Source: Desulfarculus sp.
GTDB taxonomy: Bacteria > Desulfobacterota > Desulfarculia > Desulfarculales > Desulfarculaceae
Length of the DNA: 40,124 bases
Assembly: GCA_016218705.1 (NCBI GenBank)
Contig: JACRDC010000054.1
Span: 1 to 40,124 of the forward strand
Reading direction: 5' to 3'
Shown here: piece after piece, positions 7,806-29,011 of the stretch
Numbering within the stretch: the first letter of the stretch is position 1
How the letters are laid out: each line of letters begins with the position of its first letter
Notes under the pieces: generated by a model
The model's database searches: none
What the model was told of the DNA's origin: nothing
What the model saw: only the letters and a program-made list of their open reading frames with translations
Position numbers and translations under genes: made by a program

Positions 7806-8300
7806 CTACTCCACCACCTCGGCCTTGATGATGGTCACCGCCTCCCGGGGCACGTCATCGAACATGCCCTTGCTGCCGGTGGGCACGGCCTTGATCTTGT
7901 TGATTACGCCGTGGCCCTTGACCACCTTGCCGAAGACCGCGTAGCCCCAGCCCTGGGGGGTCTTGGAGGTGTGGTTGAGGAAGTCGTTGTTCTTGACGTT
8001 GATGAAGAACTGGGCGCTGGCGCTGTGGGGATCGTTGGTGCGGGCCATGGCCAGGGTGTAGGCCTCGTTCTTCAGGCCATTGTCAGCCTCGTTCTCCACG
8101 GGGTTCTTGGTGGGCTTCTGCTTCATGTCGGCGGTGAAGCCGCCGCCTTGGATCATGAACCCGTTGATGACCCGGTGGAAGATGGTGCCGTCATAGTGGC
8201 CGTCCTTGACGTAGGCCAGGAAGTTGGCCACCGATTTGGGGGCCTTGTCCTCGTAGAGTTCGACCTCGATCTCGCCCAGGCTGGTTTCGATTTTAACCAC
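7806..8300 (-). CDS. ppiB: Peptidyl-prolyl isomerase, cyclophilin type, cytosolic
   Basis: A 164-residue cyclophilin that speeds cis/trans isomerisation of prolyl bonds. The active-site segment [16 protein letters not shown] and [16 protein letters not shown] are present. There is no signal peptide, so it acts in the cytoplasm. The start is GTG at 8300 with AAGGAG 7 bases upstream. It is a close tandem duplicate of the gene at 8342-8962; long DNA stretches (for example around 7973-8036 and 8514-8577) are nearly identical. Confidence 0.93.
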
Positions 8301-8341: not shown

Positions 8342-8962
8342 CTAGGGCTGCACCACCTCGGCCTTGATGATGGTCACCGGCTCCTTGGGCACGTTTTCAA
8401 ACATGCCCTTGCTGCTGGTGGATACGGACTCGATCTTGTTGACCACGCCTTGGCCCTTGACCACCTCGCCGAAGACCGTGTAGCCCCAGCCCTGGGGGGT
8501 CTTGGAGGTGTGGTTGAGGAAGTCGTTGTTCTTGACGTTGATGAAGAACTGGGCGCTGGCGCTGTGGGGGTCCTGGGTGCGGGCCATGGCCAGGGTGTAT
8601 ATCTCGTTCTTCAGGCCGTTGTCGGCCTCGTTGTCGATGGGGCTCTGGGTGGGCTTCTGCCTCATGTCGGCGGTGAACCCTCCCCCCTGGATCATGAAAC
8701 CGCTGATGACCCGGTGGAAGATGGTGCCGTCGTAATGACCCGCCTTGACGTAGGCCAGGAAGTTGGCCACCGACTTGGGGGCCTTGTCCTGGTAGAGCTC
8801 GACCTCGATGTCGCCCAGGCTGGTCTGGAGCCTCACCCGGGGATGGCCCCCGGCGGCGTTGGCCAGGTCCACGGAAAAAAGGCCGGCCCCACAGAGCAGG
8901 CCCACGGCCAGCAACGCCAGCCGGCTCAGGCCAAACCGGCGGGTCTGCGAGCGAGAATGCAC
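8342..8962 (-). CDS. ppiA: Peptidyl-prolyl isomerase, cyclophilin type, secreted
   Basis: A 206-residue cyclophilin nearly identical in its catalytic part to the next gene ([28 protein letters not shown]). It has an N-terminal signal peptide: basic [10 protein letters not shown], a hydrophobic [15 protein letters not shown] stretch and a likely cut after NAA. It should act in the periplasm. GTG at 8962 is preferred, with GGAGG 6 bases upstream; a TTG one codon earlier is only 3 bases from that site. It lies 41 bases upstream of the cytosolic copy. Confidence 0.9.
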
Positions 8963-9070
8963 CAAACACCTCCACGGATCAGGGGATTGGAGGGATCGGC
9001 CGCCACGGCCGGCCCCAAAAACTCATTTTTACCACAATCATGGGCTATAGCCAGCCCTGGCCTCGCGGGC

Positions 9071-20171: not shown

Positions 20172-22844
20172 CTACAGGAATTCTTGCATGCGCTGCCGGC
20201 TGGCCGCCAGGCGTTCCATCTTGGAGGCTATCTCGGCCACCTTGGCCTTTTCCTTCTCCACGACCTCGGACGGGGCCTTGGCGAGGAACCCCTGGTTGGC
20301 CAGCTTGTTGCGGCTGGGGGTGATCTCCTTCTGTAGCTTGGCGATCTCCTTGTCCAGGCGCGCCACCTCGGCGGCGAAGTCCACCAGGCCGGCCAGGGGC
20401 ACGTAGACCGTCACCCCGGCCACGGCGGCGCTGGCGGCCTGGGCGGGGGGCTGGCCCTCCGCCGCCCACTCCAGGCTCAAGGCCTTGGCCAAGACGGTCA
20501 GGCGCGGGGCCTGGGACTCAAGCACCTGGCGCGCGCTGTCCTCGTGGGGCATCAGCACCACGGGCAGGGCCTGGCCGGGGCTGATGCCCATCTCGCCGCG
20601 GATGTTGCGCACCGCGCCGATCACGGCCATGAGCAGTTCCATCTGGGCCTCGGCCTGGGGGTCCACCTCGGCTGGCGTGCCCACGGGCCACTGGGCCTGC
20701 ATCACGCTGCCCGCCGCGCCGGGTAGGCGCTGCCAAAGCTCCTCGGTGACAAAGGGCATCAGTGGATGCAGCAGGCGCACCAGGCGCGAGAAGACCTCGC
20801 CCAGGGTGCGGCGGGCGGCGGCCTGGCGGGCGGGGTCATCGTGGTTGTACAGCGGGGCCTTGACCAGCTCCAGGTACCAGTCGCAGAACTCGTGCCAGGT
20901 GAATTGGTAGAGGGCGCTGGCCGCGTCGTTGAAGCGGTAGTCCTCGATGGCGGCGGCAACCTCTGACGCCGTGCGGTTGACGCGGCTAAGTATCCAGCGG
21001 TCCTCCAGGGTGGGGGGCAGGCCGGCGCCGGCGGCCATGTCGCCTTGCAGGTTCATCAGGGTGAAGCGGGCGGCGTTCCATATCTTGTTGACGAAGTTGC
21101 GGTAGCCGGCGATGCGCTCCTCGCTCATCTTGATGTCGCGGCCCTGGGCGGCGAAGGCGGCCAGGGTGTAGCGGAAGGCGTCGGTGCCATACTGGTCCAT
21201 GATTATCAGCGGGTCCATGACGTTGCCCTTGGACTTGGACATCTTCTGTCCCGATGCGTCGCGCACCAGGGCGTGGATGCACACGTCCTTGAAGGGCACC
21301 TGGCCCATGAACTTGATGCCCATCATCATCATGCGGGCCACCCAGAAGAACAGGATGTCGAAACCGGTGACCAGGCAGGAGGTGGGGTAGAACTTCTTCA
21401 GCTCCGGGGTCTGGTCGGGCCAGCCCATGGTGGAGAAGGGCCACAGGGCGCTGCTGAACCAGGTGTCCAGCACGTCGGTCTCCTGCTGGAGTTCCGTACC
21501 GCCGCAGGCCGGGCAGGCCGTGGGCGTGGCGCGGCTGACGATCACCTCACCGCAGCCGCAATACCAGGCCGGGATGCGGTGGCCCCACCAGATCTGGCGG
21601 CTGATGCACCAGTCGCGGATGTTGGTCATCCACTCGTAATAGGTCTTGGTCCACATCTCGGGCACGATGCGGGTACGCCCTTCCTGCACGGCCTTCAGCG
21701 CCTCGGCCGCCAGGGGCCCCACCTTGACGAACCACTGCTGGCTCAGGATGGGCTCCACCATGGTCTTGCAGCGGTAGCAGTGCCCCACGGCGTGCATGTG
21801 CACCTCGTGCTTCTCCAGCAGGCCCTGGGCCTCCAGATCGGCCACCACCCTCTTGCGGGCCTCGAAGCGGTCCAGGCCGGCGTAGGGTCCGCCCAGCTCG
21901 TTGATGCGCCCGCTGTCGTCCATCACGCGGATGGCCGGCAGGTTGTGCGTGCGGCCCAGGTCAAAGTCGTGGGGGTCGTGGGCCGGGGTGACCTTGAGCG
22001 CGCCGGTGCCGAACTCCAGGGAGACGTAGGCATCGCGGATGATGGGCAACTCGCGGCCCAGCAGCGGCAGGACCAGGGTGTCGTCGGCCAAGTTCTTATA
22101 GCGCGGGTCCTCGGGGTTGATGGCCACCGCCGTGTCGCCCAGCATGGTCTCGGGCCGGGTGGTGGCCACGGTGAGATGGCCCTGGCCATTCTTGAAGGGA
22201 TAGCGAATGTAGTACAGCCCGCCTTGGACCTCCTCGTGCTCGCTCTCCAGGTCGCTTAGGGCCGTGTGGCAGCGGGGGCACCAGTTGATGATGTAATCGC
22301 CCCGGTAGATGAGCCCCTCCTCGTAGAGGCGCACGAAGACCTCGCGTACCGCCCGGGATAGCCCCTCGTCCATGGTGAAGCGCTCGCGGCTCCAGTCGCA
22401 GGAGGCGCCCAGGCGCTTGAGCTGGTTGATGATCTTGCCGCCGTACTCCTGGCGCCACTGCCACACGCGCTCGATGAACTTCTCGCGCCCCAGGTCGTGG
22501 CGGGTGAGCCCCTCGCCGGCCAGGTGGCGCTCCACCACGTTTTGGGTGGCGATGCCGGCGTGGTCGGTGCCGGGCATCCACAAGACGGCGTGTCCGCGCA
22601 TGCGCTTGAAGCGGCAGAGGATGTCCTGCAGGGTGTTGTCCAGGGCATGGCCGATGTGCAATTGGCCCGTGACGTTGGGCGGCGGGATGACGATGGAGTA
22701 GGACGGCTGGGGCGAGGTGGGCTCGGCCACGAACATGCCGTTCTGCTCCCAGTAGGCGTACCAGCGGGCCTCCACCTGGGCGGGCTCGTAGGATTTGTCC
22801 AACACGCTGGGGGTGGCGCTAGTCTTGGTGTCGTCGCTGGCCAT
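20172..22844 (-). CDS. valS: Valyl-tRNA synthetase
   Basis: A class I aminoacyl-tRNA synthetase that charges tRNA-Val; 890 residues, normal for ValS. The HIGH motif is LHIGH (62-66, after PNVTGQ) and the KMSKS motif lies at about 534-538. A zinc-ribbon-like CGCGEVIV...CPACGG and the editing domain lie between them. The last 75 residues form the ValS coiled-coil arm. ATG at 22844 is chosen: GGAG precedes it, and the 15 extra residues of a longer frame from 22889 do not fit the family. Confidence 0.97.
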   Translation of the reverse strand: MASDDTKTSATPSVLDKSYEPAQVEARWYAYWEQNGMFVAEPTSPQPSYSIVIPPPNVTGQLHIGHALDNTLQDILCRFKRMRGHAVLWMPGTDHAGIATQNVVERHLAGEGLTRHDLGREKFIERVWQWRQEYGGKIINQLKRLGASCDWSRERFTMDEGLSRAVREVFVRLYEEGLIYRGDYIINWCPRCHTALSDLESEHEEVQGGLYYIRYPFKNGQGHLTVATTRPETMLGDTAVAINPEDPRYKNLADDTLVLPLLGRELPIIRDAYVSLEFGTGALKVTPAHDPHDFDLGRTHNLPAIRVMDDSGRINELGGPYAGLDRFEARKRVVADLEAQGLLEKHEVHMHAVGHCYRCKTMVEPILSQQWFVKVGPLAAEALKAVQEGRTRIVPEMWTKTYYEWMTNIRDWCISRQIWWGHRIPAWYCGCGEVIVSRATPTACPACGGTELQQETDVLDTWFSSALWPFSTMGWPDQTPELKKFYPTSCLVTGFDILFFWVARMMMMGIKFMGQVPFKDVCIHALVRDASGQKMSKSKGNVMDPLIIMDQYGTDAFRYTLAAFAAQGRDIKMSEERIAGYRNFVNKIWNAARFTLMNLQGDMAAGAGLPPTLEDRWILSRVNRTASEVAAAIEDYRFNDAASALYQFTWHEFCDWYLELVKAPLYNHDDPARQAAARRTLGEVFSRLVRLLHPLMPFVTEELWQRLPGAAGSVMQAQWPVGTPAEVDPQAEAQMELLMAVIGAVRNIRGEMGISPGQALPVVLMPHEDSARQVLESQAPRLTVLAKALSLEWAAEGQPPAQAASAAVAGVTVYVPLAGLVDFAAEVARLDKEIAKLQKEITPSRNKLANQGFLAKAPSEVVEKEKAKVAEIASKMERLAASRQRMQEFL

Positions 22845-22881: not shown

Positions 22882-22914
22882 CAAAACAAGGGCGGGGGCT
22901 TTTTGCCCCGCCCC
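22882..22914 (-). terminator. Rho-independent terminator after the repeat-motif gene
   Basis: Read on the minus strand, GGGGCGGGGC, an AAAAA loop and GCCCCCGCCC form a strong stem, followed by TTGTTTTG. It lies 25 bases after the stop at 22939 and upstream of valS, so valS must have its own promoter or depend on read-through. Confidence 0.75.
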
Positions 22915-22938: not shown

Positions 22939-24189
22939 CTAGTCTACTACGCTCTGGGAGTTGCGGCCGGCGGCGGCCTGGCGCTTGATGGCCTCGATCT
23001 CCCGGGCCACCTGCTCGGCCACCAATTGGGGCACCATCTGGCCCACCAGGCGCTCCACGGTCTCGCGGGCCACCCGCTCGAAAATGGCCCGGGCCTCTTC
23101 CAGGGGCAGCCCCTGGGGCACGGCCAGCCCGCCGGGGCCAGCCTGTGGGGCCACGGGGGCCGTGGGTTGGGGCGTGGCCGGGGCCTTTTTGGCCTTGGCG
23201 GCCAGGGCGGCGGCGCCAGCGCCGGCGGCCAGGGCGGCGCCCGCCGCCACGGCGGGAGCCACGGGGGCTGGGGCCTCGCCCTCCAAATCGGCTAGCAGGC
23301 TGTCCAGGTCATCGCTCCCCGAGGCGGCGGGCGCGGCCGGCGGCGGCGGCGCGGCGGCGGCCTGGGCCGTGGGCTCGCCGCCCAATTCGGCCAGCAGCGC
23401 CTCCAGGTCGCCCTCGTCCGCCGAGGCGGCTGGCGCCGTTGGCGCGGCCATGGCGGGGGCGGGGGCGGCCTGGCTGTCGCCGCCCAGTTCGTTCAAGAGG
23501 GCATCCAGGTCGTCCTGGGCCAAGTCAGCCCCCGCATCGGAGGCCGCCGGGGCCTGGGCCGCCGGGGCCTGGGCCGCCGGGGCCGGCGCCGCCTGCGGGG
23601 CCTGGCCTCCCAGGTCGGCCAGGAGGGCCTCCAGGTCGTCCTGGGCCAACTCGGGGGCGGGGTTGCCGGCCAGCGGCGGGGAGGCGGGCGCCGGCGCGGC
23701 GGGGGCCTGACCACCCAGTTCGGCCAGCAGGGCGTCCAGATCGTCGTCACCACCGGCGGCGGGCGCCGGGGCCGGGGCCGCCGGGGCCGTGGGAGCGGCG
23801 GGCGTCTCTGGGGCCTGGCCACCCAGTTCGGCCAGCAGGGCGTCCAGATCGTCGCCACCGCCGCTGGCGGGCGCCGGGGCCGCTGGGACCGCTGGGGCCG
23901 CCTTGGCGGGCGCCTCTGGTGCCTGGCCACCCAACTCGGCCAGCAGGGCATCCAGGTCGTCGCCACCGCCGCTGGCGGGCGCCGGGGCCGCTGGGACCGC
24001 TGGGGCCGCCTTGGCGGGCGCGGGCCTGGCCGCCGGGGCCGCGGGCTGGCTGTCACCGCCCAACTCGGCCAAAAGCGCGTCCAGGTCGTCGCCGCCGGCG
24101 GCGGCCGGGGGCGCGGCGGGGCCTTCCTCGACCACCTCTAACAAATCTATGATTTCCGCGTCTGGAGGCGGTGTGGACTTGCCGGCCAA
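22939..24189 (-). CDS. Ala/Pro-rich protein with eight DDLDALLAELGG motifs
   Basis: A 416-residue protein with no family I can name with certainty. An acidic head (EIIDLLEVVEEG, 12-23) is followed by eight copies of a 12-residue motif at about 34, 77, 113, 149, 184, 226, 260 and 293, 33 to 43 residues apart on Ala/Pro linkers. Next come an Ala-rich stretch and a charged helical C-terminus (about 362-403, EEARAIFERVARETVERLVG). No signal peptide, so likely cytoplasmic. The motif resembles the SQDEIDALLNG peptide by which FliM binds CheY. TTG at 24189 has GGGGAGG upstream. A terminator follows. Confidence 0.75.
   Translation of the reverse strand: MAGKSTPPPDAEIIDLLEVVEEGPAAPPAAAGGDDLDALLAELGGDSQPAAPAARPAPAKAAPAVPAAPAPASGGGDDLDALLAELGGQAPEAPAKAAPAVPAAPAPASGGGDDLDALLAELGGQAPETPAAPTAPAAPAPAPAAGGDDDLDALLAELGGQAPAAPAPASPPLAGNPAPELAQDDLEALLADLGGQAPQAAPAPAAQAPAAQAPAASDAGADLAQDDLDALLNELGGDSQAAPAPAMAAPTAPAASADEGDLEALLAELGGEPTAQAAAAPPPPAAPAASGSDDLDSLLADLEGEAPAPVAPAVAAGAALAAGAGAAALAAKAKKAPATPQPTAPVAPQAGPGGLAVPQGLPLEEARAIFERVARETVERLVGQMVPQLVAEQVAREIEAIKRQAAAGRNSQSVVD
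23806..24021 (-). repeat. In-gene tandem duplication of 108 bp
   Basis: Residues 57-92 and 93-128 of the repeat-motif protein are the same 36 amino acids. At DNA level these are two nearly identical 108 bp units (24021-23914 and 23913-23806), the mark of a recent in-frame duplication. Confidence 0.85.
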
Positions 24190-24226
24190 GCAAACCTCCC
24201 CACTTTATGGTTCGTCCATTCAAGAG

Positions 24227-28639: not shown

Positions 28640-29011
28640 CTAGGGCTTGGCCGGCACCGCCGTCTCTAGGGCCATCTTGATCTTGTTTTTCAATTCGGTG
28701 AGGTCGAAGGACTTGATGACGTAGAAGTCGGCGGCGATGGACTTCATGTCCTCCTTGAATGTGTCGTAGGCCGTGCAGAGGATCACCGGCAGGTCGTAAT
28801 ACTTGTTGCGTATGTCCTGCAAGAGGTCCAGGCCGTTGTAATCCACCATCTTGATGTCCAGGATGATGAGGTCCGGCTTTTCCGCGTCTATGCGCTCCAG
28901 GAGCTTGAGGCCCGAGTCGGCGGTCACCACCTCGTAGCCCTCGTCGGTCAACTCCTCGGAGTAGAGGAAGCGGATGTGTTCTTCATCGTCCACGATCAGT
29001 ATCTTTGGCAT
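28640..29011 (-). CDS. Single-domain response regulator (CheY-like receiver)
   Basis: A 123-residue receiver domain with no output domain. The acidic pocket is VDDEE (8-12), the phosphorylated residue is Asp52 in IILDIKM, the switch residue is Thr80 (ILCTAYD) and the conserved Lys is Lys100 (VIKS). It must act by docking to a partner protein or by relaying phosphate. No kinase is encoded nearby. It lies 22 bases after the glycosyltransferase stop, so co-transcription is likely. The partner is unknown. Confidence 0.93.
   Translation of the reverse strand: MPKILIVDDEEHIRFLYSEELTDEGYEVVTADSGLKLLERIDAEKPDLIILDIKMVDYNGLDLLQDIRNKYYDLPVILCTAYDTFKEDMKSIAADFYVIKSFDLTELKNKIKMALETAVPAKP

Follow-up and report, generated by a model that had tools for sequence, protein, structure and literature searches.

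The window analyzed here is the whole 40,124-nucleotide stretch of Desulfarculus sp. DNA, and the gene of interest lies near its middle, directly upstream of valS (Table 1). The gene starts with TTG, 5 nt downstream of GGGAGG, and encodes a 416-aa protein (the window protein) that has no Pfam or NCBIfam match at an E value of ≤1 and no paralogue in its own genome. The gene order nfo-scaffold gene-valS is kept among the Desulfarculaceae orthologues. The hairpin that separates the gene from valS may act as a terminator or a valS attenuator; one terminator-like hairpin was observed in the region upstream of valS, with 0.7 expected by chance. Elsewhere in the window, two adjacent genes for cyclophilin-type peptidyl-prolyl isomerases (7806-8300 and 8342-8965), the second with a signal-like N terminus, look like a tandem duplicate.

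Table 1. Features of the putative scaffold gene and its surroundings in the window
Feature	Position	Strand	Basis
Putative scaffold protein gene	22939..24189	-	ORF of 416 aa and orthologues
Ribosome-binding site GGGAGG ahead of the TTG start	24195..24200	-	Direct reading
Conserved N-terminal motif EIIDLLEVVEE, residues 12-22	24124..24156	-	IIELTxVVE in relatives; DEVLELTDPI in PopZ
Motif copy 1, DDLDALLAELGG	24055..24090	-	Pattern and AlphaFold helix
Motif copy 2, DDLDALLAELGG	23926..23961	-	Pattern and AlphaFold helix
Motif copy 3, DDLDALLAELGG	23818..23853	-	Pattern and AlphaFold helix
Motif copy 4, DDLDALLAELGG	23710..23745	-	Pattern and AlphaFold helix
Motif copy 5, DDLEALLADLGG, LAQ just before	23605..23640	-	Pattern, peptide matrix, and AlphaFold helix
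Motif copy 6, DDLDALLNELGG, LAQ just before; most FliM-like of the eight	23479..23514	-	Pattern, peptide matrix, and AlphaFold helix
Motif copy 7, GDLEALLAELGG	23377..23412	-	Pattern and AlphaFold helix
Motif copy 8, DDLDSLLADLEG	23278..23313	-	Pattern and AlphaFold helix
RomR-C/DUF2497-like C-terminal helix with the terminal VVD (residues 361-416)	22942..23109	-	Profiles and AlphaFold
Terminator-like hairpin, GGGGCGGGGCAAAAAGCCCCCGCCC then TTGTTTTG, between scaffold gene and valS	22889..22914	-	
valS, conserved downstream neighbour of scaffold gene	20172..22844	-	ATG start likely

The pattern DL[DE][AS]LL[AN][ED]L occurs eight times in the 416-aa protein, compared with 0 occurrences in 2000 composition shuffles. 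The 12-residue copies begin at residues 34, 77, 113, 149, 184, 226, 260, and 293, spaced by 33 to 43 aa, and their helices are acidic and amphipathic (L..LL..L), with Ala/Pro-rich linkers between them. An earlier note on this DNA had described one motif repeated eight times on Ala/Pro linkers; the array is confirmed, but the exact 12-mer DDLDALLAELGG is found in four of the eight copies, with DDLEALLADLGG, DDLDALLNELGG, GDLEALLAELGG, and DDLDSLLADLEG as the other four. A 108-bp tandem repeat at 23702-24021 (3.0 copies, 89% match) spans part of the array, indicating that this part was duplicated recently. As the AlphaFold model was built from a three-sequence alignment and has a mean pLDDT of 53, only helix positions were taken from it: eight short predicted helices coincide with the eight motifs, the linkers are predicted to be disordered (pLDDT of <50 across most of residues 1 to 357 apart from the motif helices), and a single long C-terminal helix covers residues 363 to 407 with a pLDDT of about 83. 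A search of the genome with the pattern D-[DE]-x-[DE]-A-L-L returned the scaffold gene and one type I restriction subunit, the latter judged to be a chance match.

Orthologues were identified in the Desulfarculaceae, Desulfocarbo indianensis included, and share the N terminus PPPxxxIIDLVEVVE and a C terminus mostly ending in VVD. They carry 3 to 9 motif copies, with 6 to 9 in flagellated Desulfarculaceae and 3 to 4 in genus g4. Some wider relatives have a single motif-like helix (DDSLADLLAALKE, EESLEDLLYSLKE), and no recognizable motif was found in the sequences of some short relatives, such that the copy number across relatives is 0, 1, 3 to 4, 6, or 8 to 9. The array expanded via tandem duplication, probably from one motif like that of some relatives. 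This drift from 0 to 9 among species is what a tuning parameter would show, and the motifs could bind one another or their own C-terminal helix, which is likewise amphipathic, the array then tuning assembly without any client. The condensates driven by the C-terminal domain of the polar protein PopZ are tuned by the length of its intrinsically disordered region and by helix valency (PMC9512792). The motif sequence is, however, strongly conserved inside the Desulfarculaceae, and we regard such a client-free array as rather unlikely.

Motif copies and flagellar docking peptides

The earlier note had likened one motif copy to the FliM peptide that binds phosphorylated CheY. In the same genome, FliM begins MSKILSQDEVDALLKG and CheZ ends MAQEEVDKVLSSLG...LNQDAVNSMLQSMGF, two successive docking-like peptides. 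This CheZ (L063, contig C54), at 640 to 645 aa, is far longer than usual, and its terminal peptide pair is conserved in the family. Using a scoring matrix built from the family's FliM and CheZ peptides, copy 6 scored 15.6 and copy 5 scored 10.0, while the remaining six copies scored about 0 or less; the reference peptides scored 20.7 to 27.8, and the highest score among 500 shuffled proteins was 14.8. The FliM likeness is confined to two copies, 5 and 6, which have the LxQDxhDxLL core of the FliM N-terminal and CheZ C-terminal peptides yet score under every one of these references. The core is also common to some copies in flagellated relatives, where more FliM/CheZ-like copies were found, scoring up to 21.2 (in G009). 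In contrast to the FliM and CheZ peptides, the motifs in the window protein are repeated inside a putative scaffold, and most lack the LxQ part.

In eight genomes of the sister genus g4, neither FliM nor CheZ was detectable, and the protein was present with 3 to 4 motif copies at all seven loci read. Its motifs (for example, ELDRILAEL and ELRNLLAEL) have lost the Ala of DALL, which may reflect descent or loss of a flagellar client in this one clade. As g4 keeps the motifs without detectable FliM or CheZ, the motif partner is not restricted to FliM/CheZ chemotaxis, and clients that occur solely alongside this system are ruled out.

These observations bear on what the motifs might bind. If each motif bound phosphorylated CheY in the manner of FliM and CheZ, the protein would store or concentrate CheY-P. 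The core common to copies 5 and 6 and to the genome's own FliM and CheZ, together with the additional copies of this kind in flagellated relatives, is consistent with such docking, as is the binding of a response regulator by PopZ. Six of the eight copies nevertheless fail to score on the matrix, g4 retains protein and motifs without a FliM or CheZ match, and the FliM-like form in flagellated genomes compares one clade with another and could be due to plain descent; a CheY store is unlikely. A receiver domain in general is a possible partner, by analogy with CpdR, a response regulator that attaches to the N-terminal region of PopZ in a contact weakened by phosphorylation (PMC11519897).

The earlier note also pointed to a lone receiver gene at 28640-29011. 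The open reading frame is present (Response_reg, E value of 2.3e-26), but nothing ties it to the array: it belongs to another gene group 4.5 kb away, with nfo, dgt, lptF, and lptG in between, its best NCBIfam matches are receivers of the NtrC/PhoB type rather than chemotaxis CheY, and it was rejected as the partner. The receiver is single-domain, lies upstream of a glycosyltransferase gene, and is 93% identical in the L023 genome, with the same order beyond lptG.

The same class of peptide would suit an ATPase of the MinD/ParA type (FlhG or ParA), FlhG having been reported to bind the EIDALL region of FliM. The protein would then act at the pole as a hub for placing flagella or chromosomes. 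FlhG alone would leave g4 unexplained, whereas a chromosome-segregation client would exist in g4 too, and ParA/ParB are known partners of polar hubs, PopZ for one (PMC5182065). This reading is likewise unlikely. For the flagellated members, our best candidates for the client are a receiver domain or a MinD/FlhG-like ATPase.

Relatives encoded upstream of valS

A profile of the final 60 residues was used to search genomes of the phylum at an E value of ≤0.01, and matches were found in 84 of 395 Desulfobacterota genomes. Outside the family, the top 24 matches are mostly receiver-linker-helix proteins, with a CheY-like receiver (KKILLADDSITIQKV) at the start, an acidic linker, and REVIEKVVWEVVPELAEELIKEEI at the end; the rest are short proteins without a receiver (REC-less) that have an IIELT-like N terminus of the form EEIIELTQVVE. 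As valS lies in the flank at 23 of these 24 loci, a single slot upstream of valS holds receiver-bearing or receiver-less proteins with the same C terminus, and comparison of the two types of C terminus with hhalign gave 98.7% and an E value of 2e-16. The window gene is the Desulfarculaceae form of a gene that many Desulfobacterota carry immediately upstream of valS, and at the level of sequence profiles its 40- to 50-residue C-terminal helix is shown to be homologous to the C termini of these valS-linked proteins. In G022 (L123), which belongs to a different family in the class, the approximately 1 kb read upstream of valS contained no scaffold gene; the gene may have been lost or moved in that family.

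When Pfam was run on the relatives, the family most often matched was DUF2497, weakly (5 of 22, best E value of 0.0088). Using hhalign, the C-terminal profile matched an alphaproteobacterial DUF2497 profile of three or four sequences, including a Caulobacter PopZ sequence whose residues 1 to 134 agree with 6xry, at 90.8% with an E value of 1.2e-6 and a score of 31.8. In controls, 300 column shuffles scored at most 17.6, the reversed profile 17.8, and natural control profiles at most 14.4. With a PopZ profile from database records alone, which omits the Caulobacter C terminus, the score was 29.8 versus 15.1 for the control. DUF2497 (PF10691) had no match in the genome, and the window protein has no DUF2497 match in Pfam at an E value of ≤1. 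A PDB search with the C-terminal profile returned nothing useful; 6xry comprises PopZ residues 1 to 134, without the C-terminal domain. In alphaproteobacterial records (Sphingomonas and Sinorhizobium) the gene order is tolC-popZ-valS, and Caulobacter popZ and its relatives adjoin valS (PMC6414705).

Because it does not pass as a member of DUF2497 and lacks the PopZ N-terminal helix, the window protein was filed, from sequence comparison, as a distant relative that would work like PopZ and not as a PopZ. A literature search found neither a PopZ relative in the Desulfobacterota nor a link between PopZ and RomR. The order kept with valS across the phylum and in the Alphaproteobacteria might instead suggest a factor acting on valyl-tRNA synthetase, but PopZ has the same neighbour and is a polar scaffold, and a terminator-like hairpin separates the scaffold gene from valS. 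We know of no link between PopZ and ValS, and such a factor is highly improbable.

Proposed scaffold and its likeness to PopZ, RomR, and HubP

We consider that the gene probably encodes a cytoplasmic, self-assembling scaffold of the PopZ/RomR type in which a client-binding helix has been amplified. By analogy, its C-terminal helices would self-assemble, probably at the cell pole, in line with reports that RomR residues 371 to 420 form a trimer (PMC12719032) and that the PopZ C-terminal domain drives condensates (PMC9512792). The motifs would be client-binding helices, eight of them in disordered linkers that fold upon binding, so that each chain could hold up to eight client molecules and each assembly many, with high valency turning weak single contacts into strong recruitment. 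The IIDLLEVVEE segment may provide a second conserved contact. Against this scaffold stand the lack of a Pfam or NCBIfam match for the window protein and of any strong DUF2497 match among relatives, the absence of the PopZ N-terminal helix, of RomR Trp394, and of a roadblock protein, the small alphaproteobacterial profile, and the lack of a recognizable motif in some short relatives. The multivalent hub of docking helices with a helical C terminus proposed in the earlier note is supported, and CheY docking in part; its statement that no protein of this design had been described overlooked the kinship to the C-terminal domains of RomR and PopZ.

PopZ has been described across the Alphaproteobacteria, and RomR has been studied mainly in Myxococcus and Bdellovibrio. 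It is plausible, if somewhat short of probable, that PopZ and the RomR-like proteins of the former Deltaproteobacteria derive from one valS-adjacent polar scaffold whose N-terminal working end was swapped (PopZ helix, CheY-like receiver, or IIELT motif) and whose linker became an eightfold client-docking array, a natural high-valency hub, in the Desulfarculaceae. PopZ and RomR appear as separate inventions in the cited papers, and a common C-terminal domain and valS neighbour would join them. If so, searching upstream of valS would be a simple route to polar scaffolds in phyla without described ones. The eight-copy array, with relatives carrying 0, 1, 3 to 4, 6, and 8 to 9 copies, also offers a natural test of binding valency against assembly in bacteria.

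The receiver-bearing Desulfobacterota relatives match the published layout of RomR (PMC3441718, PMC12719032), and the E-K-x-x-W...E spacing reported for the MglC-binding residues of RomR-C (PMC12719032) recurs in them. RomR-C by itself brings GFP to the poles (PMC3441718). In its linker and C-terminal helix the window protein resembles the receiver-bearing Desulfobacterota relatives, against which the homology was computed, and to that extent would resemble RomR; the helix keeps the invariant Pro of RomR-C and has Gly at the position of the invariant Trp394. No Response_reg match corresponding to the RomR receiver was found in the window protein, and no Robl_LC7 domain (PF03259), as in roadblock partners of the MglB/MglC type, in its genome.

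HubP/FimV of the Gammaproteobacteria is a polar hub with acidic repeats, HubP also having LysM, transmembrane, and FimV parts. Compared by description only, the acidic repeats are alike, whereas none of the LysM, transmembrane, or FimV parts was seen in the window protein. With respect to PopZ, the window protein belongs to a different phylum, has no Pfam match, lacks the client-binding helix of the PopZ N terminus (MEEILASIRRII; SMEEILASIRRII), and repeats client-like helices in its linker. By eye, DEVLELTDPI of PopZ (6xry) resembles IIDLLEVVEE of the window protein and ILELTDVVE/IIELTxVVE of its relatives. The two proteins are alike in a gene position upstream of valS, a disordered middle, and a C-terminal helical domain that matches at the profile level.
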